From Kiritimatiellia bacterium (GTDB lineage: Bacteria; Verrucomicrobiota; Kiritimatiellia; PWTM01): 38,719 bases of DNA. The notes beneath the pieces are model-generated. The model searched no databases, was not told the origin of the DNA, and worked only from the letters and a program-made list of their open reading frames with translations. The stretch is from positions 1-38,719 of the forward strand of contig JAGOHE010000004.1 in NCBI GenBank assembly GCA_017996315.1, in the 5' to 3' direction. The position numbers and the translations under genes were made by a program. Position 1 is the first letter of the stretch. Each line of letters opens with the position of its first letter. Shown here one piece after another: positions 4,802-28,580 of the stretch.

Positions 4802-5719
4802 CTATTCCGGGACCGCGACAGGTTCCGAAAATACGGGTTCCGGAGTCGTGGCTTCCGGAGTCACAGTTTCCGGGGCCGGGCTTGTTTCTTCCTCCGCCGT
4901 CACGGAGGCTTCCCCGGTCGCGGTGTCCATATCTTCGTCCTCGGACTCAAACGGTTCCGCGCGCGCCTTTTCCGCGGCCGCGAGGATGGTCGGCATGAGA
5001 TCCAGGATATCCGCGCAGGGGACCACCACGGGGGTGGCTTGACCCATGCCCATTTCGCTCGAGGGCAGTGATTTTTGGGCGATGATACCCAGGCACTTTC
5101 CGGCGGTGGTCATGACGGGCAGGCCGGGGCCGGAATAGTCATCGATGAAGTAGGCCTTGCGGGGCCGGCGGGCGATGCTGGTGACCCGGACCAGCAGGAC
5201 GCGCGGCTCCCAGTTCAGCATCTTGGGATAACGGCCGAGCGCGAACACCGGATCCAGAAGTTCCGCCTGCGACTGCGCGTCGAGCGTCACCGGTTTGAGT
5301 TCCGGAATTTGCTGTTCCCGGCGGGGCCGTGGCAACAGGAACGCGAGATCCAGATCGGGATCGGAGTAGACGTTGCTGGCGGGCACTTCGGTCCCATCCG
5401 CGTACCGCAGCATGATCTTCGACGCCGAGCTGCGCAGGGTGAGGCCCATCGGAACCTGCACATTCCGGGTGGGATTGAGCATGCGGTCGGAGACGACCAC
5501 CAGCCCGCTCTCGTGAATCACGGTGCCGAAGGCATCCACGGGGATATCCTTGCGTTCGCTGCCGGCTTCAATGCGCACTACGGCCGACACGCCGATCATG
5601 GCATCCTGCGCGGCGGCCAGCGCCTGGCGTCCGTCCTGCTCGATCGTCGTCTGCGCAAAGCTCGCGAGACCGCAGAGCATGCCTCCGGCGATGGTCATTC
5701 GTATCAGGGTATGGTTCAT
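4802..5719 (-). CDS. Secreted trypsin-fold protein, probable pseudoprotease
   Basis: A 305-residue protein with a signal peptide (about residues 1-23, MNHTLIRMTIAGGMLCGLAS). The body resembles the protease domain of HtrA: AVVRIEAG, then DAFGTVIHESGLVVVSDRML, then SDPDLDLAFLLP, then DYSGPGLPVMTTAGKCLGII. When laid against the upstream HtrA, the catalytic-His segment TNHHV is replaced by SDRML. The Asp of DLAFL is kept. The GNSGGPLV segment becomes SGPGLPVM, which puts Pro where the nucleophile should be. The last 60 residues are Glu/Pro/Thr-rich. The ATG overlaps the stop of the HtrA gene (ATGA), so it is coupled to the active protease and may be a regulatory or substrate-binding partner. Loss of activity is inferred from a by-eye alignment. 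Confidence 0.7.
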   Translation of the reverse strand: MNHTLIRMTIAGGMLCGLASFAQTTIEQDGRQALAAAQDAMIGVSAVVRIEAGSERKDIPVDAFGTVIHESGLVVVSDRMLNPTRNVQVPMGLTLRSSASKIMLRYADGTEVPASNVYSDPDLDLAFLLPRPRREQQIPELKPVTLDAQSQAELLDPVFALGRYPKMLNWEPRVLLVRVTSIARRPRKAYFIDDYSGPGLPVMTTAGKCLGIIAQKSLPSSEMGMGQATPVVVPCADILDLMPTILAAAEKARAEPFESEDEDMDTATGEASVTAEEETSPAPETVTPEATTPEPVFSEPVAVPE

Positions 5720-7815
5720 GTCTTCGGCGCCTCCTGTGCGCCCTGGTCCGATTCCGGATCGGATTCCGCGGGCGATTTCGATCGCCCGTTCCACTGCGGT
5801 TCCACTTCCAAAAACTGGGTCACGACTCCCCGTCGGATGAAGAACACCACCCGGGGCCGGCGCTCTTTGACGGCCGCCTTGAGCGCCCGCTCGGCCGAAG
5901 GCACATCGGGCGTGGGCTCCCCATCCACGCGGAGGAGCAGATCGCCCGGCCGAACACCGGCGAGCTGGGCGTCGCTGGCGCGTTCCATCTGATCGATCAG
6001 CACGCCCCGCACGTCGTCGGGCAGCTGGCGGTTCACCCGGTCCATCTGGAGCATCTCGCGCACGGTGAACTCGAAATACATGTCGGTGTACCGCGCCGGC
6101 TCCTCCGCCGTATCCGCCGCTTCTTCGAGAACCAGCGAGAGGTTCATCGGCTTCCCATCCCGGATGATATCGAACGGGAGCGTGGCGCCTATGCGGTACT
6201 GGCGCAGCGTCTGCATCAGAATGTTGATGTCGTCCTGCTTGGGGGCGCGAATCGGATCGCCGTCCACCGAAACCAGAATATCGCCGGCCCGGAATCCGGC
6301 GCGATCCGCGGACCGGCCGGGAATCACAAACGCGACGCGCGCGGCGCTCGGCACGGGCAGGGCCAGCCGGCGTGCCAGGTCCTGATTGACGGGCTGGAGC
6401 ACGACCGGGAACTCCGGCCGCCGGGAGGGGGTGGGATTTTCGGCGGGGCGCTCCCCGCCGATCCGGGCGACGGCGAGGTAGCTGCGCTGATTGCGTTCGA
6501 ACTCCACGGTCACCGGCAGCGGGCTGGCGCGTCCTTCGCACAGTTCGGAGGTGAGCTTCGCGAGCGCCGCGACGGACGGCACGGGCGTATCGTTGACGCG
6601 GGTGATGATATCGCCGTCTTCCATATCGGGCTCGGTGATGTCGCACGGTCCGCCGACGCGGATGGAGGATACGAACACGCCATTGGTCGTGGACCGTTTG
6701 AGTTCGATCATCATCAGCCACGTGACGTCCCGAACCGTCAGCCCCCAGTCCTTCATTTCCCGATCGGGCGGCTGGGCGGGCTCACGCACCGTCGTGGTCA
6801 GCGACAGGGCAAGAACTTCGTTCCCCCTCCGGACGCGCATCGGCACCGTCCGGCCCACGGGCGTGCCCAACACGAGCGCATTGAATACCGGCAGATCATC
6901 GGTAGCGCCGACATTGGTTTCCGTTCCGTCGAACTCAAGAAGAATATCGCCCGGCTGAACTCCCGCCGCGGCCCCGGGCGACTCGGGCAACACGCCGCCG
7001 ATCAGCGCGCCCCGGGTGTCGTCCGAACCTTTGAGCCGAGGCTGAGCCAGCAGCCCCGTCCAGCTTCGGCGGACATGGCCGTGGGCGATGATCTCATCGG
7101 CCACCTGCCGGGCCAGATTTCCGGGAATCGCGCCGCCGAGTCCGGCGACGCCCACTTCATTGACACCGATGATCTGTCCGCGCATGTTGACCAGGGGTCC
7201 GCCGCTGTTGCCGGGAAAAATTTGCGCGTCATGGGCGATCCAGCGCACGAGAGAACCGACATCCTCTCCGTCCAATTGCATCTTGCCCTGCATGCCCCGG
7301 GGCAGCAGCAGCGCGGTGTTGCTGGCGATGCCACGGGTGACCGACTGGTTGAGTCCACCGGGGCTGCCCATCGCGAGCACCGCATCGCCCACCTTGACCT
7401 CGCGGCTGTCGGCGAATTCCGCCACCGGCAGGCGTTCGCCCGGACGCAGCGCCGTGAGGTCGAGCCGGAGGACGGCGATGTCCGCAAGGGCATCGGTGCC
7501 CACCAGTTCGGCGGGAATCTCCCGACCGTCGGCAAGCCGGCATATCAGCCGGGTGGCCTTGCCGGCCACATGGTGGTTGGTAAGCACATGTCCTTCGGAG
7601 GAAATGATGGTGCCGCTGCCGCTGCCGCGCTCCTTCTCCATGCGCCCCCCGCTCGCCTCTTCCGAAACCACTTCCACGCGCACCAACGCGGGATATACCC
7701 GGGCAATCGCCCGGACGACCTGTGCGCGGTCGTCCGATCCGCCCCACCATGCGGCGTTCGCCGCGGCGGCCATTCCCAATCCCCACGCCAGTACACCTGA
7801 AAAAATATTTCGCAT
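5716..7815 (-). CDS. HtrA/DegP-like serine protease with four PDZ-like segments
   Basis: A 699-residue periplasmic protease. Signal peptide at residues 1-21 (ends AAANA-A). The trypsin-like domain covers about 35-250 with the full triad: His82 in VLTNHHVAG, Asp112 in ALADIAVLRLD and Ser204 in FPGNSGGPLV. Four PDZ-like segments follow at about 255-345, 355-452, 468-563 and 575-672, each with the buried-strand pattern PGDILLEFDG, DGDIITRVND, AGDILVSVDG and PGDLLLRVDG. Known HtrA proteins usually have one or two PDZ domains. The C-terminus is a short acidic tail. The start at 7815 is set by AGGA about 7 nt upstream and by the signal peptide. The gene heads a two-gene operon with the pseudoprotease. 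Its likely role is envelope protein quality control. Confidence 0.9.
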   Translation of the reverse strand: MRNIFSGVLAWGLGMAAAANAAWWGGSDDRAQVVRAIARVYPALVRVEVVSEEASGGRMEKERGSGSGTIISSEGHVLTNHHVAGKATRLICRLADGREIPAELVGTDALADIAVLRLDLTALRPGERLPVAEFADSREVKVGDAVLAMGSPGGLNQSVTRGIASNTALLLPRGMQGKMQLDGEDVGSLVRWIAHDAQIFPGNSGGPLVNMRGQIIGVNEVGVAGLGGAIPGNLARQVADEIIAHGHVRRSWTGLLAQPRLKGSDDTRGALIGGVLPESPGAAAGVQPGDILLEFDGTETNVGATDDLPVFNALVLGTPVGRTVPMRVRRGNEVLALSLTTTVREPAQPPDREMKDWGLTVRDVTWLMMIELKRSTTNGVFVSSIRVGGPCDITEPDMEDGDIITRVNDTPVPSVAALAKLTSELCEGRASPLPVTVEFERNQRSYLAVARIGGERPAENPTPSRRPEFPVVLQPVNQDLARRLALPVPSAARVAFVIPGRSADRAGFRAGDILVSVDGDPIRAPKQDDINILMQTLRQYRIGATLPFDIIRDGKPMNLSLVLEEAADTAEEPARYTDMYFEFTVREMLQMDRVNRQLPDDVRGVLIDQMERASDAQLAGVRPGDLLLRVDGEPTPDVPSAERALKAAVKERRPRVVFFIRRGVVTQFLEVEPQWNGRSKSPAESDPESDQGAQEAPKT

Positions 7816-7847
7816 GAAATCCTCAATTTTGCCGACAGGCGGCGACG

Positions 7848-7876
7848 ATTGTACCTTAGACCCCCCCCTGCCGAAA
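7848..7876 (-). promoter_or_regulatory. Possible promoter for the HtrA operon
   Basis: On the minus strand TACAAT (7853-7848) is a good -10 match about 33 nt before the HtrA ATG. The hexamer 17 bp upstream, TTTCGG, is a poor -35, so the assignment rests mainly on the -10. Confidence 0.35.
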
Positions 7877-7926
7877 GCATTCATGTAATCTTTCCAAAAC
7901 CCGTCGCAGCGTCTAGGCTGTGGGGC

Positions 7927-8619
7927 ATGACTACTCCAATGCCCGGCGCCGGGGCGCTCCCGGCGTACCGTCTGCCCTTTTTGGATCCCGCGCCGGCGTT
8001 GACCTGCGCCTTCGAGGATCCCGCCTGGCGGGAAGTTCCCGTCGCGCGCATCGCGTGCTTCCGGCCCGAAAGCAGCGCGCATCGGCCCCGTGTCTCCGCC
8101 CGGCTGGTTTGGAGCGCGGATGGCTTGCACGGAATTTTTGATGTGCGGGATCGCGATACACGCGGGGTCTGCCGGGCGTTTATGGATCCGGTGTACGAGG
8201 ATAGTTGCGTGGAGTTTTTCGTGCAGCCGGAAGGGGTTGGACCGTACTTCAACTTTGAATTCAGCGGCGCCGGCGGCTGGCTCGCATCCCTGGTCCGGGA
8301 TCCATCCCGCATCGGCCTGGGCGGATTGAAGGATTGTGTTCCGCTGGACCCCGCCCGGGCGGGCCTCATCGGGATTCACAGCACCATGCCCGCGGGCGAC
8401 ACCCCGGGGCCCGTGGATTGGACGCTGTCGTTTCATCTTCCCTGGTCCGTGATGGACCGCGGGTCGGGCGAGCCCCGCCCCCGCGCGGGGGCGGTCTGGC
8501 GGGGGAATTTTTACAAATGCGGCGACCGCACCCCCGGTCCGCACTGGGCGGCCTGGGCCCCGGTGGCTGAGTTGAACTTCCACCTGCCCGCCTGTTTCGG
8601 GGAACTTCATTTTTCATGA
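7927..8619 (+). CDS. CBM9-like carbohydrate-binding protein
   Basis: A 230-residue protein that resembles the carbohydrate-binding family 9-like domain seen in many verrucomicrobial and Bacteroidetes proteins. Features are an opening LTCAFEDPAWREVPVARI, the strand VSARLVWSADGLHGIFDVRD, the conserved VYEDSCVEFFVQPEG, YFNFEFSGAGG, and a closing WRGNFYKCGDRTPGPHW. No signal peptide is evident, so it may act in the cytoplasm or leave by another route. ATG at 7927 is chosen because the domain starts soon after; an upstream in-frame ATG at 7849 would overlap the divergent promoter region. Its stop overlaps the start of the following membrane protein gene by 4 nt (ATGA). Sugar-binding residues cannot be assigned. 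Confidence 0.75.
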   Translation: MTTPMPGAGALPAYRLPFLDPAPALTCAFEDPAWREVPVARIACFRPESSAHRPRVSARLVWSADGLHGIFDVRDRDTRGVCRAFMDPVYEDSCVEFFVQPEGVGPYFNFEFSGAGGWLASLVRDPSRIGLGGLKDCVPLDPARAGLIGIHSTMPAGDTPGPVDWTLSFHLPWSVMDRGSGEPRPRAGAVWRGNFYKCGDRTPGPHWAAWAPVAELNFHLPACFGELHFS

Positions 8620-9518: not shown

Positions 9519-12500
9519 ATGTCTATCCGATTTCGATGCACCAAATGCCTGACTCCCCTCGAAGCGAGTGTGGAGGTCGCCGGCATCGAGGTGGAATGCC
9601 CGCGATGCCGCACGCAACTGACCGTGCCTCAATCCGAAATCGGACCCGGTTCCATTCTCGGAGGGTTCCGCATTGAACGCCTGATCGGCGAAGGCGGCAT
9701 GGGGCAGGTTTATCTCGCCAAGCAGCTCTCGATGGACCGGGATGTCGCGGTGAAGGTGCTCCGGCGGGGCCCCGGGTTCACCGAGCAGGACGCCCATGAT
9801 TTTCTCCGCGAAGTCCGGCTGCTGGCCCGGCTCGATCATCCGAACATCGTCACCGCCCACGAAGCGGGCGAGGCGGAGGGGGTGCTGTTCCTGGCCATGA
9901 CCTATGTGCGGGGGGATCCGGTCGAACGCCGGATCGCCCGGGACGGTCCGATGCCGGAAAGCGAAGTGCTGCGCATCGGGCGGAGAGTGGCCGAAGCGCT
10001 GGAGTACGCGTGGAACGAGCACCGCGTGCTGCATCGCGACATTAAACCGTCCAACATCCTCCTCGACTCCTCCGGCGAACCCCGGCTGGCGGATCTCGGG
10101 CTCGCGCAGAGCCTGCTGCACGAAGGCCAGCGGCTGTCGGATATCGAGGGCACGCCGAATTACATGAGTCCCGAGCAGGCGGAAGGCGTCGCGGATGCCG
10201 ATTGCCGATCCGATATTTACGCGCTGGGCGCGTCGCTGTACCACATGCTGACTGCGCATCTTCCGTTTGCCGCGGCCACCGTGGAGGAAACTCTTCGGCT
10301 GAAAGCCACGCAACCGCTCGAAGACCCGCGCGTCTATCGCCCGGAACTGTCGTCGCACACCGTCGAGCTGCTGACCGGCATGCTCGCGACCGAGCCCGGC
10401 GATCGCTATGCCACGTGGGAGGATGTCCGGCGGGCGATGGACCGGGTGGTCTCCGGACATGCGCCCCAGCCCACCCACGAGACGGCGGCTGCGGCGGCTC
10501 ACACCGGAGTCCGGGTCACCGCGGCCCAAATCGACGAGCTGCATCATGCGCATCACCACGGATCGTCCGACAAGCATCGCGCCTTCCTGCTGGCCGCGGT
10601 GGGGCTGATCGTGATCGGGGGCGCCGCCGTGCTGGTTCGATCTCTCCTGGATCGCCCCCTTCCTGTGACGCCGCCGGTCGCCGAGCAACCGCCGGTCACC
10701 ACCCCGACGCCTGATCCGACTTCCGATCCCGAGGCCGAAGCGAAGGCCGCCGCCGAACGCGAACAGGCGCTCGCCGCCGAACGCGAGCAGGCCGCGCAGA
10801 ATAAATTGAAGGAGGCCGAAGCCTGGGCCGCGCAGAATTCCGCCAACTTTGACGGGGTTCTGGACCGGCTCGCCGCGCTGCGGGAGGAGGTCAAAGGCAC
10901 CCCGGCTGAAGCCGCCCTGGACGCCCGGATCGCCCACTGGACGGAGGTCAAAGTCCAGGCCATCGCCGCTGTGATGAATCGGCTCGGAGAGCAGACCCGG
11001 CCCATGATCGAGCGCGGGGAATACGAAGCGGCGGCGTTGAAGATGGAAAGCTATGTCGGCGCGCTGGCCGGCGATACCGCTGGAGCGCGTTCGGAATTGG
11101 CGGCGCAATTCCGCCGCACGGGCGAAGAACACAGAACGCGCGCCCTGGAAAAGGCGCGCGCGGAGTGGGAAAAGGCGCGCGCGGAACTTGCCGGGCATAT
11201 CTTGAACAATGATCCCGCGGCCGCCGCGTCCCTGCTGGCGAAAGCCCGGGCGTCGGCCGAAACCTGCGGCGCCGCGGAGGAAGCGGAGAGCTGGGACCGG
11301 CTGGTCCGGAAAATTCAGGAATTCGACGGATGGATCATCCAAACCTTTCAAGAGGATATCGGGAAGACGATGGAGCTGGGGTCGGGACGGGAGGCTTGGA
11401 CGATCATTGGCATCCAGGGAAAAGCCCTGCGACTGCGGCGCGATTTGGGTGGGGCGTTTACGGAACGCAGCATCACGGCGGCCGATATTCCCCTCCCCGA
11501 GCGGTATCGGCGGCTGAGCACGGAAACCCCGCCCGTGCAGGGCCATCTCCAGGCCTGGTTCCACGCCGCCGCCCGTCTGGCCGATCGCATTCCCGCGCTG
11601 TTGAAAGATGCCGAAGATCCGGTCAGCCGCGCCCTTTCAGAAGCCGCCGGAGGAAAAACGGTCGGCGAGATGGAATCCCGGGCGCAGATGGCGTTGAACG
11701 AAGTCCTGCGGCGCGCGCGAATCCCGTCGGAGGCCGGAGAAACTCCCGCGAACTTCGCCGCGCGAGTCCGTCGCACCACATTCGATGAAACGCTGTCGGG
11801 ACAACTGAAACCCGTCATCCGGGATTTTCGCGCGCGATTCGCAAACACCCAAATCGTCTCCGACTGGGCCGAAGCGCTCGAAGCTCTGGAAAACACCGCG
11901 CCCTGGCCGCGTGAAATCGATCCGCGCCTGGTCGAGAACTCGATGAGCATGATGGCGCAACTCAACCCCGGCTTCCGCCCCGAGCTGGCCGAATGGAAGA
12001 CCAGCCTCGAGGGCGTCGAGCTCATTTTGGAAGGGCGGATGATTTCGAACATCACTCCCCTGGAAACCTTGCCGCTGACGGCGCTTACCCTGCGGGCCAC
12101 TTCGGTCCGGGACCTCTCGGCTCTGCGCAGCATGCCCTTGTTCCGGCTCGACGTAAGTCAGACCCCGATCCGGGACTTCAGCCCGCTGCGCTCCCGTCCG
12201 CTGCGCGAGCTGATTGCGAACGGCTGCACCCTCGATTCCCTATCCACCCTGCGAGGGCTATCCTTGCAGTCGCTGTCCATCTCCACGAATTCCGTTTCCG
12301 GATTGTCGCCGCTGACTGGGATGCCGCTGCAGCGGTTCGTGGCGAGCAACTGTCCCATCACCAGCCTTACCACGCTGAGCCGGATGCCGCTGGAATATTT
12401 GGACATCAGCCATACCACCGAAGCCCTGGACCTGAAACCCCTGCGGTCAACTCCGCTGAAAACCCTCATCCTTTCGCGCTCCCGGGTGACGGATCTTTCC

Positions 12501-13067
12501 GGGCTGAAGGGCCTCCCCCTGGAGACTCTTTACATCGACCAGTGCCACTCCCTCCCATCCCTGGGCACACTCCCCGCGGATCTTCCCCTCAAGTTCCTGT
12601 CGGCGCAAGGTCTCACTGAAGCAGCCATCCTGTCCCTTCCAACCCTGAGCACCCTGGAAGCGCTGGATGTCTCCCAGGGTCGGTCCATTGCCAATCCGAA
12701 TTTTCTCCGCGGCTTGCGCCTGAAAGAGCTCTGGATGAACCACACGTCGATGACCGAACTCGGCATCCTGATTGGAATGCCCCTGGAGCGGTTGCATCTG
12801 CGCGACACGCCGGTGATAGACATCGGGCCGTTGGCGAATTTGCCTCTGAAGTATCTGAACCTCAGGGACAACGCGCGCTTGAAAGATATCGCTCCGCTGG
12901 CGGACTGCGAGGAACTGGAGACTCTGATTCTTCCGGGATACCATGCCCTCCCCGACGACGCCGTGCTCAAACTCCCCAAACTCCAGAAGATCGGGCTAAA
13001 CGAAAGTCAGCTCCTTTCTCCCGCGGAGTTTAAGAAAAAATACCTCAAGGATCGTGCCGCGCCCTGA
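9519..13067 (+). CDS. Membrane Ser/Thr protein kinase: zinc ribbon, kinase, TM, coiled coil, LRR
   Basis: An 1182-residue signalling protein. Residues 7-30 hold a zinc ribbon (CTKC at 7-10, CPRC at 27-30). The Hanks-type kinase domain at about 50-310 has the Gly loop GEGGMG at 57-62, Lys79 (VAVK), HRD at 172-174 with Asn179, DLG at 192-194 in place of DFG, SPE at 217-219 and Arg296. All catalytic residues are present, so it should be active. One transmembrane helix lies at about 355-376. An Ala/Glu-rich coiled coil follows, then a long extracytoplasmic region. The last ~400 residues hold about 16 leucine-rich repeats of 21-23 residues with the pattern PLxxLxxSxTxIxDLSPL. Zinc ribbon, kinase and LRR in this order is typical of planctomycete/verrucomicrobial kinases. 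The LRR part probably senses a ligand or partner. Confidence 0.92.
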   Translation: MSIRFRCTKCLTPLEASVEVAGIEVECPRCRTQLTVPQSEIGPGSILGGFRIERLIGEGGMGQVYLAKQLSMDRDVAVKVLRRGPGFTEQDAHDFLREVRLLARLDHPNIVTAHEAGEAEGVLFLAMTYVRGDPVERRIARDGPMPESEVLRIGRRVAEALEYAWNEHRVLHRDIKPSNILLDSSGEPRLADLGLAQSLLHEGQRLSDIEGTPNYMSPEQAEGVADADCRSDIYALGASLYHMLTAHLPFAAATVEETLRLKATQPLEDPRVYRPELSSHTVELLTGMLATEPGDRYATWEDVRRAMDRVVSGHAPQPTHETAAAAAHTGVRVTAAQIDELHHAHHHGSSDKHRAFLLAAVGLIVIGGAAVLVRSLLDRPLPVTPPVAEQPPVTTPTPDPTSDPEAEAKAAAEREQALAAEREQAAQNKLKEAEAWAAQNSANFDGVLDRLAALREEVKGTPAEAALDARIAHWTEVKVQAIAAVMNRLGEQTRPMIERGEYEAAALKMESYVGALAGDTAGARSELAAQFRRTGEEHRTRALEKARAEWEKARAELAGHILNNDPAAAASLLAKARASAETCGAAEEAESWDRLVRKIQEFDGWIIQTFQEDIGKTMELGSGREAWTIIGIQGKALRLRRDLGGAFTERSITAADIPLPERYRRLSTETPPVQGHLQAWFHAAARLADRIPALLKDAEDPVSRALSEAAGGKTVGEMESRAQMALNEVLRRARIPSEAGETPANFAARVRRTTFDETLSGQLKPVIRDFRARFANTQIVSDWAEALEALENTAPWPREIDPRLVENSMSMMAQLNPGFRPELAEWKTSLEGVELILEGRMISNITPLETLPLTALTLRATSVRDLSALRSMPLFRLDVSQTPIRDFSPLRSRPLRELIANGCTLDSLSTLRGLSLQSLSISTNSVSGLSPLTGMPLQRFVASNCPITSLTTLSRMPLEYLDISHTTEALDLKPLRSTPLKTLILSRSRVTDLSGLKGLPLETLYIDQCHSLPSLGTLPADLPLKFLSAQGLTEAAILSLPTLSTLEALDVSQGRSIANPNFLRGLRLKELWMNHTSMTELGILIGMPLERLHLRDTPVIDIGPLANLPLKYLNLRDNARLKDIAPLADCEELETLILPGYHALPDDAVLKLPKLQKIGLNESQLLSPAEFKKKYLKDRAAP

Positions 13068-15065: not shown

Positions 15066-15932
15066 ATGAGTGATGCCCTGCAGACAGGCTGGAAGACGGG
15101 TTGGCGCATAGCCGCAGCGGCCTTGATTTGGAGCGCATCCGCGGCCCGCGCGGAGTCGGATCCCGCGATTCCGCCGCCGGAGTTGAACGACGCTTCTGCC
15201 CCGTTGGACGCCGAACTGCGCCTGGCCCTTCCGCCTCCGGACCCGGAAGACGTTCCGGAGGAACTCGCCGATAAACTGACGCTGGCGGAGCCGCGCGGAG
15301 GCCGGCTGCGGTCTCAAACCACGCTCATGTTCGGCGTGGGCGTCATCGCCGTGGGGGTGCTGTATTTCATGCCTGCCAGCATCACCGGATGGGATCAAGA
15401 TTATGGTGTGAGCGATCTGCCCAGCCGATGGTGGGACAACGTGACCAGCGGACCGCGTTGGGACGACGACGACGTGTTTTTCAACTATGTCACGCACCCC
15501 TACTGCGGCGGTGTGTACTACGTTATGGCCCGAAAATCCGGATATGGCCCGCGCGATTCCTTTGTGTACTCCGCGCTGATGTCGACGTTTTTCTGGGAAT
15601 ATGGCATTGAAGCTTTCGCCGAGGTCCCTTCCATTCAGGATTTAATCACGACGCCCGTCGGCGGATGGCTGTACGGGGAATGGGCCTATCACCGCGAAAA
15701 GGCGATCATAGCCAACGGCAACCGCCTGTTCGGATCCCGGGTGCTGGGCTATGTGGCCCGGTTTCTTATCGATCCGGTGGACCGGATCGGAAGCGGAATC
15801 AACCACATGGTCGGGCGCGATTGGATCTATACCGGCGATATCTCCATCCGCCCGCTCGCATTCGTCACGCCCGATGAGCACGCGGGGGAAGACGATGCGA
15901 AAGTCACACTTCGCCTCGCCGTCCAGTTCTGA
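15066..15932 (+). CDS. DUF3943 envelope protein
   Basis: A 288-residue protein with an N-terminal signal peptide (cleavage likely after SAARA, near residue 29), a Pro/Glu-rich linker and the DUF3943 core. The core includes YVTHPYCGGVYYVMARKSGY, then STFFWEYGIEAFAEVPSIQD, LITTPVGGWLYGEW and a C-terminal FLIDPVDRIGSGINHMVG. The pattern HPY-G--Y...WE...EPS--D---TP-GG---GE matches the family, whose members are outer-membrane or periplasmic proteins of unknown function. A hydrophobic stretch TLMFGVGVIAVGVLYFM sits just before the core. The gene has its own strong promoter and stands alone; the next gene is convergent. Confidence 0.8.
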   Translation: MSDALQTGWKTGWRIAAAALIWSASAARAESDPAIPPPELNDASAPLDAELRLALPPPDPEDVPEELADKLTLAEPRGGRLRSQTTLMFGVGVIAVGVLYFMPASITGWDQDYGVSDLPSRWWDNVTSGPRWDDDDVFFNYVTHPYCGGVYYVMARKSGYGPRDSFVYSALMSTFFWEYGIEAFAEVPSIQDLITTPVGGWLYGEWAYHREKAIIANGNRLFGSRVLGYVARFLIDPVDRIGSGINHMVGRDWIYTGDISIRPLAFVTPDEHAGEDDAKVTLRLAVQF

Positions 15933-16008: not shown

Positions 16009-16950
16009 TTACCAGCGACAATTCAAAGACAGGTCCACCATGAAGGTATCGAGCGAGATCCCGGCGCTTTGGGTGTAGCGCTCGTCTATCTCGACCACAT
16101 GCAGGTCCCCCTTGAACTCCGGAATTGATTGCAGGTGCGCGCCCGCGGCCGCGGACCAATGCGGGCTCCATTTCCACTCCAGCGTGGCGCCCGCGCCCAC
16201 CCAGACGCCACCGGAGAAATCGCCCTCAAACCTCAAATCCCGAGCCACGTGATGATCCCAGTCTTCCGCCCAGACCTGCGGCCCTAGCGCCAGATAACCG
16301 GACCAGGCCCAGCGGTCGCCTCCGCCGTGCGCCTGCGCTCCAAGATATGGAACCACATACGACTGTTCGTACTCGATCAGCCGGCGGCCATCAAAGACGC
16401 CCCGGGTGTCCCGGAATCCTTCCTCGGAATAGATGTATTCCCGACCCCGGTCGCTCCAGCTCCAATGCTGCACCCGGAGGCCGGCCATGGCGCGCAGGGA
16501 CAAGAACTCCATCCGGACCAGTTGAACCGTCACGCCCGCGTCGGCGGTCCATGCTGAATCCACATCCACATAGCTGAGTGAATAATCGGTCCAGTCGAAC
16601 CCGGGAATCTGCCAGTCATAATCGCGCATCTGCCCGCGGCCTTCGCTCACCGCGACGACGCATCCCGCATACCCGGCCCACGCCCCCCACCGGCCGTTCA
16701 GGGCGAGGCCGGCCATGGAAACGCCATCGATATCCCAAATCAGCTCGCTCAATTTGTGCGTCGGCCCATACACCAATTCACGCGCCTCTCCGCCAATCGT
16801 CGCCGCGATCGCGCGCACGGAATATCGTTCCCGCGGAACCTCCTCCCCGGGCGTGTCGCGGATCAACGGGAGGGGCAGCGCGCGCGCCGGAATCACCAGC
16901 GCCGCCAAGGCGCAGACCACGGCCAACACACATTTCAGAAAATGGTTCAT
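16009..16950 (-). CDS. Omptin-family outer-membrane aspartyl-type protease
   Basis: A 313-residue protein with a signal peptide (residues 1-24, ends IPARA) and a 10-strand beta-barrel pattern ending in Trp (LSLNCRW). It shares the omptin signatures KLSELIWDIDGV near 66-77, MRDYDW at 108-113, EYIYSEEGFRD at 171-181 and YLGAQ near 202. The OmpT catalytic pairs Asp83/Asp85 and Asp210/His212 align with Asp110/Asp112 (D-Y-D-W) and Asp232/His234 (W-D-H-H), so all four catalytic positions are present. Known omptins (OmpT, Pla, IcsP) cut substrates at paired basic residues on the cell surface and need LPS. ATG at 16950 overlaps the stop of the metallo-hydrolase gene (ATGA). Omptins are best known from gammaproteobacteria, so finding one here is notable. 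Activity is inferred. Confidence 0.9.
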   Translation of the reverse strand: MNHFLKCVLAVVCALAALVIPARALPLPLIRDTPGEEVPRERYSVRAIAATIGGEARELVYGPTHKLSELIWDIDGVSMAGLALNGRWGAWAGYAGCVVAVSEGRGQMRDYDWQIPGFDWTDYSLSYVDVDSAWTADAGVTVQLVRMEFLSLRAMAGLRVQHWSWSDRGREYIYSEEGFRDTRGVFDGRRLIEYEQSYVVPYLGAQAHGGGDRWAWSGYLALGPQVWAEDWDHHVARDLRFEGDFSGGVWVGAGATLEWKWSPHWSAAAGAHLQSIPEFKGDLHVVEIDERYTQSAGISLDTFMVDLSLNCRW

Positions 16951-17789
16951 GATTCCACGCTCGCGGTGAGAGGGGGGTTCGACTCGGTTTCCGGCGAGGC
17001 CGCCGGCATGAGAATCCGGTACGCCGGAGTGGGCGCGCGCGCGCGGGCCACTTCGACGCGCACATGCGCGCAGCCGGCCTGCGCCAGCCGGTCCCGCATC
17101 GCGCGTTCGCAAAGCGCGCGCTCGTTACATTCCTCGCTGAGATGCGCCAGGATGATCCACTGCAAATGGGGCCCGGCCAGCTCCGCGGCCAGATCGGCCG
17201 CCATGTCATTGGAGAGATGCCCCAGCCGGCCAAGTATTCTGGATTTCAGGAGCAGCGGGCGGCCGGACCGGCGAACCATCCGCTCGTCGTGATTGGCTTC
17301 CAGCACCAGCCCGTGACATCCCTTCAACCGCGCGCGGATGAGCGAGGTGGGCATGCCCAGATCGGTGGCGACGCCCAGCCGCGCCCCGCCGCATTCAAAA
17401 ATAAATCCGACGGGTTCATAGGCGTCGTGGGGCACCGCGAAGGGGTGGACGTTCAATGCGCCAATCCGGAAGTCCGATCCGGTTTCGAAGGTCCGCCAGG
17501 CAATCCGGTCCAGCCCGGGAATGCGCGCCGCGCCCTGGGCGGTCCCGCGATTGGCATACACGGGAATTGCATACCGGCGATGCAGCGCATCCAGCCCCGC
17601 GATATGGTCGCGGTGTTCATGGCTGATGCAGACGGCGTTCAGCGAACCGGGGTCCGTGCCCGCTTCCTCCAGGCGCGCAACGAGCGACCGGGCGCTGATT
17701 CCCGCGTCCACGAGCAATGCCGTGCCCCCGCCCCGGATCAGGAGCGCGTTGCCCCGGCTGCTGCTGGCCAGCATGACGGCTTCAAGCAT
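16947..17789 (-). CDS. MBL-fold metallo-hydrolase, YycJ/WalJ family
   Basis: A 280-residue cytoplasmic metallo-beta-lactamase-fold protein. It opens with MLASSSRGNALLIR and LLVDAGISARSLVARLE, the usual YycJ N-terminus (ASGSSGN...LLIDAGLS). The metal-binding HxHxDH is SHEHRDHIAG; further ligands are His in VPHDAYEPVGF, Asp in GVATDLG and His in LAHLSEECN. Family members have been linked to double-strand-break processing and to cell-wall control next to WalKR. ATG at 17789 is used; another in-frame ATG at 17774 is possible and neither has a clear ribosome binding site. It is divergent from the zinc-ribbon gene at 17851. A functional link to the omptin downstream is not obvious. Confidence 0.88.
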   Translation of the reverse strand: MLEAVMLASSSRGNALLIRGGGTALLVDAGISARSLVARLEEAGTDPGSLNAVCISHEHRDHIAGLDALHRRYAIPVYANRGTAQGAARIPGLDRIAWRTFETGSDFRIGALNVHPFAVPHDAYEPVGFIFECGGARLGVATDLGMPTSLIRARLKGCHGLVLEANHDERMVRRSGRPLLLKSRILGRLGHLSNDMAADLAAELAGPHLQWIILAHLSEECNERALCERAMRDRLAQAGCAHVRVEVARARAPTPAYRILMPAASPETESNPPLTASVES

Positions 17790-26149: not shown

Positions 26150-28174
26150 TCAGGGTGCTGCCCCAATTGCCGGCGGGTCATTCAGCAGAGGGATGCCCAT
26201 ATCTGCGAGATACTGGAATGTGCGCTGGTAAAACTCCGGGGAGCGCGTGGGATCATCTTCCGCGCCGGGCGGGACAAAGATGACCATGCCCTGCCGCGCG
26301 CGGGTGAGCAGCACCCGGTAGGCGTTGCGAAGATAGTTCCGGCGATCCTCGTTATGTAATCCGCACCACCGGTCGCCGCGGAAGATGTGGTAGTCCCAGC
26401 CGGATCCCGTGTACCGCAGGTCGGCATCCCAGTTCACGCAGACCCAGTCCAGTTCCAAGCCCTGGACATCGAACTGCGAAGCGGCATCCTCAAGGTACAG
26501 GCTCGATCGCGTATCCCGCCGGTCATCGAGGAACCAGTGGACGGGGTCAATAGTCACGCGGACATCAATCGCATGCGGCTTGAGCCGCTGGGCCTCGGAT
26601 GAAGCGACCATCCCGAACCGCTCGGTTCCCCGCGCGCGCTGCCGAATCCAGGTCTTGGCCTGCGCGAGGTCCCGGGTGAGCACAATGGGGTAGCGCTGCC
26701 TGAGTTTCGCGAAGGCTTCTCGCGCGCCTTCGATCTCGCAGTCCAGAACGGCTTTCACGAACGCCGACACGTTTTCGGCCCGGAACGAGCGCATGGAGAC
26801 GGCCAGATGAAGCGCGCTGTCGAAGTACGTGTGGCGCCTGGACCGCACGGCATCCAGGGCGTGCCCGGCCGCATATTCGCTGTCCGTCAGTTCTGGCGAG
26901 ATGTAAACGTGCCAATCGGGAAAGGCCGTGTTGATGGCTTCAATCCATGCGCCGATGCCGGCCTCGCCCGTGTTGATCTCCTGCCCGCCCCCGACCAGAC
27001 AGACCACAACGGCCCAATCCTCGTGCCGGTCGAGGTACGATATCAGGAACTCCGGCTCCGACTGGGCGAAGTTCTGGACCTTCTTCTTGCGGCGCATGAA
27101 GTCGGAGGTTTTGGCGCAATGCCATGCCCGTTGCGCCTCGTCGAAAATCACGACATGATCAATCGGCGGTGAGGTCTCACGAAGCGCCTCGTCGCGGAAG
27201 TGGTGGACGTTCTGTATGAACGCCTTCACGCTCTCGTACACCTTGCCCTTGCGGGCCTTCTCGCCGCCTGATCGTTTACGGGCCACCTCATCCCTCGTCA
27301 GCGCCTCGCGCAGCACGGCAACCAGCGGGCCGTTGCCGGACAGAAAAACCGCATGGGTCGCACGGTGGGTATCGCGACGCTTTGTGGCGACATTGAGGCC
27401 CACCAAGGTCTTGCCCGCTCCCGGCACACCCGTGACGAAGCAGATGATCTTGCTGCGTGATGCGCGGGCCTGCTCGACCAGTTCCTCGATGCGTGTTGAC
27501 GTGACTTGCAGATTGCGGGCGCCGGCATCATGACGGGCAATGGCATCCACCGAATGCTGGGCATAGAGCGACTGGGCCGCCTCAATTATGGTGGGCGTGG
27601 GATGGTAGGACGCGGCTCCCCACTTCACCCCATCCAACACACGGCCGGATATTTCGACCAGCCCCAGATCAATGATCCCCCGGAGTCCCCGGCCGTTCGA
27701 CCGGATTGGCGGGTAGACACGATCCTCATGGGGTTCGGTCAGGCGCCGATCGCTGACCGGAGCCTCCGTCGCCAGGAGAATCGGCAAAATCGGCGCCACA
27801 TGGCTTGCCTGATGGAAATTCTTAAGGTCCAGCGCATAGTCCCAGACCTGATCCAGATCAGCGCGGTTGAAGGCCCGCTCTCCCACTTTAAACTCGACGA
27901 CGAACACCATCGCCCCGGATACCACCACCGCATCAATCCGCTTGCCCATCCGAGGGATGTTGAACTCGAGAAACAGCGTCCCTTCGAGACCTCGCAGCGC
28001 CATCTTAAGAATCGCGATTTCCTCAAGCCACGCATCGCGCTGAGGCGGTTCGACGGCCATTTCGCTTCGGGTGGTCAGTACCCCCAGAACGCTTTCCGGC
28101 GGCGCGGCTATGAACGTCGCTATGGAATCGCTGTAGTACGCGCGAGGCAGGAGATTGGCGCAGGCATGTTCCAT
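26150..28174 (-). CDS. DUF2075 helicase with RecB-type nuclease-like N-terminus
   Basis: A 674-residue protein with two parts. The N-terminal ~200 residues carry a PD-(D/E)xK-like pattern: Asp81 in KRIDAVV, Glu94-x-Lys96 in VFVVEFKVG, and Gln109-x3-Tyr113 in DQVWDYALD, which matches the QxxxY of RecB/Cas4-type nucleases. The rest is a DUF2075 (superfamily 1-like) helicase: Walker A GVPGAGKT at 249-256, Walker B with FDEAQRAW near 344-351, a QEINTGE motif, SLYLEDAASQFDVQGLELDW, and a C-terminal motif VI-like YRVLLTRARQGMVIFVPP. Such proteins recur in phage-defence loci, but no partner gene is visible. GTG at 28177 is next to the ATG used. It lies beside a tRNA gene. Confidence 0.85.
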   Translation of the reverse strand: MEHACANLLPRAYYSDSIATFIAAPPESVLGVLTTRSEMAVEPPQRDAWLEEIAILKMALRGLEGTLFLEFNIPRMGKRIDAVVVSGAMVFVVEFKVGERAFNRADLDQVWDYALDLKNFHQASHVAPILPILLATEAPVSDRRLTEPHEDRVYPPIRSNGRGLRGIIDLGLVEISGRVLDGVKWGAASYHPTPTIIEAAQSLYAQHSVDAIARHDAGARNLQVTSTRIEELVEQARASRSKIICFVTGVPGAGKTLVGLNVATKRRDTHRATHAVFLSGNGPLVAVLREALTRDEVARKRSGGEKARKGKVYESVKAFIQNVHHFRDEALRETSPPIDHVVIFDEAQRAWHCAKTSDFMRRKKKVQNFAQSEPEFLISYLDRHEDWAVVVCLVGGGQEINTGEAGIGAWIEAINTAFPDWHVYISPELTDSEYAAGHALDAVRSRRHTYFDSALHLAVSMRSFRAENVSAFVKAVLDCEIEGAREAFAKLRQRYPIVLTRDLAQAKTWIRQRARGTERFGMVASSEAQRLKPHAIDVRVTIDPVHWFLDDRRDTRSSLYLEDAASQFDVQGLELDWVCVNWDADLRYTGSGWDYHIFRGDRWCGLHNEDRRNYLRNAYRVLLTRARQGMVIFVPPGAEDDPTRSPEFYQRTFQYLADMGIPLLNDPPAIGAAP

Positions 28175-28580
28175 CACAGCCCTGGTTCCGCAAATTCTCT
28201 CGCATCATTGATGGCACGCACCACTTTGTGCCCCCTTGGCTCGTTGAAACCTCTTCGCTCCACATGAAACAGCGCGCAGCGGCGCGGTCAATTTCGCACA
28301 AGTCCGCACACCAAGGCAATGGCCAAGAACAGAAACCGCTGAAGCGATGCCGGCTTCGATGAGGCGTCCAAGCATTGGATGGAATTGCGGCCGGATATCC
28401 AGACGTTGGATGAATGCGCAGTAACCCCGCCGCGAAAAATCACCGGCGTCCCGCAGGAGCCCGGCGGCGCGGCACGCATGAGGTGCGGTCATTCAGATTG
28501 CGCGGTGTACGCATATTTCTGAATGGCGGCGATGCCGCCGACGGACTGGGGCAATGGGGAAACGGAGTCCGGATATACCA
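28175..28580. other. Intergenic stretch between DUF2075 gene and tRNA-Leu
   Basis: About 400 bp without a supported gene. A GC hairpin GGCGGC/GCCGCC is at 28525-28539. Short open frames on the minus strand have no family match or initiation signal. No transposase, integrase or repeat was recognised. Confidence 0.5.

Follow-up and report, generated by a model that had tools for sequence, protein, structure and literature searches.

The window analysed here, a stretch of 38,719 nucleotides of DNA, raises the question of whether a bacterium of the PVC group can possess a genuine, working omptin and, if so, where such a protein came from. The open reading frame at 16009-16950 on the minus strand (ATG at 16950) encodes a protein of 313 amino acids, which had been predicted to be an omptin-family outer-membrane protease. 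The family itself is already known; what is new here is a member of it in Kiritimatiellia. The product is a genuine omptin from a deep Kiritimatiellia branch, and it is probably active.

The host genome (2.2 Mb, 84% complete) is placed in the class Kiritimatiellia, in agreement with the PVC affiliation that had been proposed for it; the depositors' titles for MAGs of this class vary (Lentisphaerae, Victivallis, Spartobacteria). The YycJ-type hydrolase encoded on the same contig (see below) is closest to those of G002 and G003, two members of the host's family (52-53% identity), and roughly level with those of some other class members, and the contig is thus consistent with its genome bin.

Family assignment and predicted fold

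The Pfam profile PF01278 (Omptin) matches the open reading frame with an E-value of 2.9e-29 (102.5 bits, cut-off 22.6) and nearly over its full length, from residue 49 to 309 of the protein and from position 11 to 279 of the 283 profile positions. A profile search of the host genome returned this omptin and no other. In a phmmer search of PDB sequences, Pla of Yersinia pestis and OmpT of Escherichia coli (MEROPS A26, PF01278) were matched at 3e-15 to 5e-12, Pla being the best match of solved structure at 3e-15. Among the NCBIfam models, the top-scoring one was NF008227 (the PRK10993.2-4 omptin subfamily, E 2.4e-37); equivalog membership was rejected, as the score of 128.8 bits falls short of the cut-off (706).

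AlphaFold2, supplied with 14 homologues, models the protein with ten long strands (pLDDT 86.9, pTM 0.81), giving the antiparallel ten-strand outer-membrane barrel that is found in OmpT and Pla. The first eleven Foldseek matches to this model are all omptins, with TM scores of 0.73-0.91 (by either length) and best rmsd values of 1.5-1.8 Å. Pla (2X4M; 2X55 is also available) is the top match and the closest structural relative (E 8.1e-24, TM 0.82/0.89, rmsd 1.6 Å), as judged from the PDB search results, through which all comparison with Pla was made, and OmpT (1I78) follows closely (TM 0.82/0.89, rmsd 1.7 Å). The first match beyond the omptins falls to an E-value of 1e-8 and a TM score below 0.3. 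Hence, the assignment to the omptin family is far above chance, the predicted barrel superposing on Pla and OmpT at 1.6-1.8 Å.

In common with OmpT, the protein appears to start with a signal peptide and ends in an aromatic residue. Residues 1-25 (MNHFLKCVLAVVCALAALVIPARAL; 16876-16950, minus strand) read as a likely Sec signal peptide, with an AxA-like ARA near the putative cleavage point, and AlphaFold2 confidence is low over residues 16-30. The C-terminal residue is a Trp, which we take to be compatible with a BAM signal.

Catalytic tetrad and specificity pocket

Residues were mapped by a MAFFT alignment with OmpT of E. coli K-12 and 21 relatives. The catalytic residues Asp83, Asp85, Asp210 and His212 of OmpT correspond to Asp110 (16621-16623, minus strand, as are all codons given here), Asp112 (16615-16617), Asp232 (16255-16257) and His234 (16249-16251), exactly the four positions named in the original prediction. 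The superposition and the alignment together suggest that these residues lie close to one another at the mouth of the predicted barrel. The Kiritimatiellia protein is two residues shorter than OmpT in the loop that directly follows His212. In a wider alignment of 71 relatives from four phyla, Asp85, Asp210 and His212 are kept in all but one sequence, while Asp83 is missing from that same sequence and replaced by Asn in a few others.

OmpT needs its four catalytic residues, and its preference for basic residues is set by the residues of its pocket (PMC11410778). These are also retained: Glu58 (16777-16779) and Asp230 (16261-16263) align with Glu27 and Asp208 of the S1 pocket, and Asp122 (16585-16587) with Asp97 of the S1' pocket. 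Since all three are kept, cleavage after basic residues is to be expected. Other Kiritimatiellia omptins (for example L005/L025, L019 and L007), which belong to the same clade at 31-40% identity, share the tetrad and the Glu27/Asp208 pair; many have His at the position of Asp97, where the host protein has Asp. A literature search found no studies of these other Kiritimatiellia omptins.

We consider it very likely that the protein is an active omptin of a Kiritimatiellia lineage, that is, a BAM-inserted barrel which would cut after Arg or Lys and which would do so without lipid A binding of the OmpT/Pla type. It would be exported by Sec and inserted by BAM into the outer membrane as a ten-strand barrel, where the Asp-Asp and Asp-His pairs at the outside mouth would activate a water molecule and surface-accessible peptides or protein loops would be cut after Arg or Lys. 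As to its use, our guess is that it may destroy cationic antimicrobial peptides or trim the bacterium's own or neighbouring surface proteins.

The protein might instead be an inactive barrel of omptin fold, an adhesin or a structural protein, whose catalytic residues are retained by inertia. Omptins also serve as adhesins (PMC7696990), the contact residues through which LPS activates the studied enzymes are gone (see below), and one relative, L010b, has lost its catalytic residues altogether. However, Asp85, Asp210 and His212 are fixed across phyla at 22-40% identity, where most else has drifted, and the host protein keeps both dyads together with the pocket for basic residues. An inactive barrel therefore seems improbable.

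Some variation within the family deserves mention. In G020, two omptins occur in tandem (L010); the upstream one, L010b, has Glu, Arg, Ile and Tyr at the four catalytic positions, and the downstream one has Asn at Asp83. A second omptin-like clade (L012-L015 and L068-L076), in which Glu27 is replaced by Tyr or Ser and DSDW and DxDDH motifs are found, spans Kiritimatiellia and Desulfobacterota and includes two genomes of the host's own family. The pocket chemistry of this clade probably differs.

The lipid A contact site and LPS

The LPS-binding Arg/Lys residues to which the original prediction had drawn attention are not conserved as OmpT/Pla lipid A contacts, though the host has LpxC. In the alignment, Tyr134, Glu136, Arg138, Arg175 and Lys226 of OmpT, to which the protein is 22% identical, are replaced by Leu158, Val160, His162, Ser197 and Ser246. 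The lipid A arginines of Pla (24% identity) are likewise lacking, and nothing hints at a host-directed role such as that of Pla. The contact motif (Arg138, Arg175, Lys226 and their neighbours) is absent throughout the Kiritimatiellia clade, and the pair of Arg138 with Arg or Lys at 175 is confined to the enterobacterial group among the 71 sequences from four phyla. On this alignment, the Kiritimatiellia omptin is predicted not to use the arginine site of OmpT and Pla for binding lipid A. Across the loci read, it is the catalytic site of omptins that is fixed, and not the LPS site.

The motif has been described as conserved in omptins (PMC3048539); we regard it as characteristic of those omptins that have been studied, and not as a feature that defines the family. 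Replacement of Arg138 by Glu in Pla abolishes plasminogen activation (PMC7696990), which, with the site lost, makes weak activity possible for the Kiritimatiellia protein. By contrast, when the putative LPS motif of OmpT was mutated, the enzyme kept excellent activity, the motif being dispensable there (PMC7356225). Loss of the motif alone, therefore, does not predict inactivity.

The host genome encodes both LpxC (E 4.4e-26) and BamA (E 1.1e-61), and LpxC was found in 18 of 18 Kiritimatiellia omptin carriers checked, the host included, as well as in every carrier checked from Pseudomonadota and Desulfobacterota. The situation differs in Spirochaetota, where only two of 30 omptin-bearing genomes checked possess LpxC and the other 28 (among them G304, G917, G967, G996, G1045 and G1048) gave no LpxC match. 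These 28 probably lack LPS; in several of them, matches lie at coordinates beyond 2 Mb on a single contig, so the absence of LpxC is unlikely to be a gap. An Omp85/BamA protein is present in all 30, which indicates that an outer membrane exists in each. Among 14 omptins read from genomes devoid of LpxC, 12 retain all four catalytic residues and the other two carry Asn at the position of Asp83. This absence concerns the omptin family and not the Kiritimatiellia host, which does possess LpxC.

It is conceivable, though we would put it at somewhat below an even chance, that omptins are old, LPS-independent surface proteases of diderm bacteria, common in Kiritimatiellia and Spirochaetota, and that the enterobacterial enzymes activated by LPS form a specialised branch that arose late and gained the lipid A site. 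If so, the 28 Spirochaetota would have omptins that work without any LPS, and the omptins associated with virulence would have arisen late, by adaptation of a general surface protease. Omptins from genomes without LpxC would make the role of LPS in omptin catalysis directly testable.

Distribution and origin of the omptin

The original prediction had offered either transfer or a wider spread of the family as the explanation for an omptin in this host, and the survey bears out the second. Counting weak profile matches, an omptin is encoded by 18 of the 58 relatives of the host surveyed, by 14 of 198 Desulfobacterota genomes (sampled around Desulfosarcina) and by 50 of 198 Spirochaetota genomes (around a Spirochaetaceae MAG), as against 12 of 398 Pseudomonadota genomes (around Franconibacter). 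In a sample of 289 genomes from across the host's phylum, 24 were positive, all of them in the host's class. On the loci read, the family is older and broader than its well-known enterobacterial members, and in this sampling Spirochaetota and Kiritimatiellia carry it more often than Pseudomonadota do. No omptin relatives were found in the viral contigs scanned. A search of the literature, which left most subscription journals outside its reach, found no study of omptins from Verrucomicrobia, Kiritimatiellae, uncultured metagenomes, spirochetes or Treponema; a Leptospira paper mentions a protein modelled like Pla (PMC5406399).

In a tree of 56 canonical omptins, the 25 from Kiritimatiellia form one clade (97/90), recovered in 96% of bootstrap trees, and the host sequence lies inside it. 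Pseudomonadota and Desulfobacterota omptins form a separate group (93/84), and 11 from Spirochaetota another (100/98); L042, a Spirochaetaceae sequence on a long branch, stands beside the Kiritimatiellia clade. Recent horizontal transfer from Pseudomonadota, be it from enterobacteria or similar bacteria, might be thought to account for the patchy presence of omptins among the relatives and for the canonical form being present in only two of nine genomes of the host's family, and published omptins are indeed described as horizontally spread (PMC3048539). The position of the host sequence within the 97/90 clade nevertheless makes such a transfer very unlikely: it is not nested among enterobacterial sequences, and constraining it to group with them costs 32 log units (p-AU 0.031, a modest rejection). 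Furthermore, the GC content of the gene (0.634, against 0.643 for the whole window) and its GC3 (0.76) are like those of its neighbours, and the protein is only 22% identical to OmpT, compared with 31-40% to canonical omptins of its class.

Within the clade, the host omptin is nearest, with weak support, to L010, which comes from another family, rather than to L007, which comes from the same family as the host, so that exchange inside the class is possible, the long end branches limiting resolution at this level. Rather than being a recent arrival, the omptin very likely stems from a lineage long resident in Kiritimatiellia, as the tree suggests, with much gene loss and possibly with exchange within the class.

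Genomic neighbourhood

The coupling of the omptin to a YycJ-type hydrolase, which had also been proposed, stands only in part. Directly upstream, at 16947-17789 on the minus strand, lies the gene of a YycJ-type hydrolase of the metallo-beta-lactamase fold (Pfam Lactamase_B_2, E 7.5e-22), whose stop overlaps the start of the omptin gene by four bases (ATGA, read at 16940-16960). With this overlap on the same strand, the two genes are probably co-transcribed, and it might be supposed that they form an operon in which omptin and hydrolase serve a common function. Yet the hydrolase has strong matches in 19 of 20 genomes searched, the host included; it has no omptin beside it in the eight relatives whose loci were read, and the other omptin loci have no adjoining hydrolase of this type. 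It seems, therefore, that the coupling is a local arrangement, and a shared function is highly improbable. No neighbours recur near other omptins except for weak matches to widespread families.

On the other side, a DUF3943 protein is encoded convergently to the omptin (15066-15932, plus strand; PF13084, E 3.8e-39). No sign of a functional link between the two was seen, nor was DUF3943 seen beside other omptins. Elsewhere in the window, a serine/threonine kinase fused to leucine-rich repeats (9519-13067) adjoins a trypsin-like protease that contains three PDZ stretches (5716-8610), and a protein with a Schlafen group 3 helicase domain is encoded at 26150-28177 (PF09848, E 6e-82).
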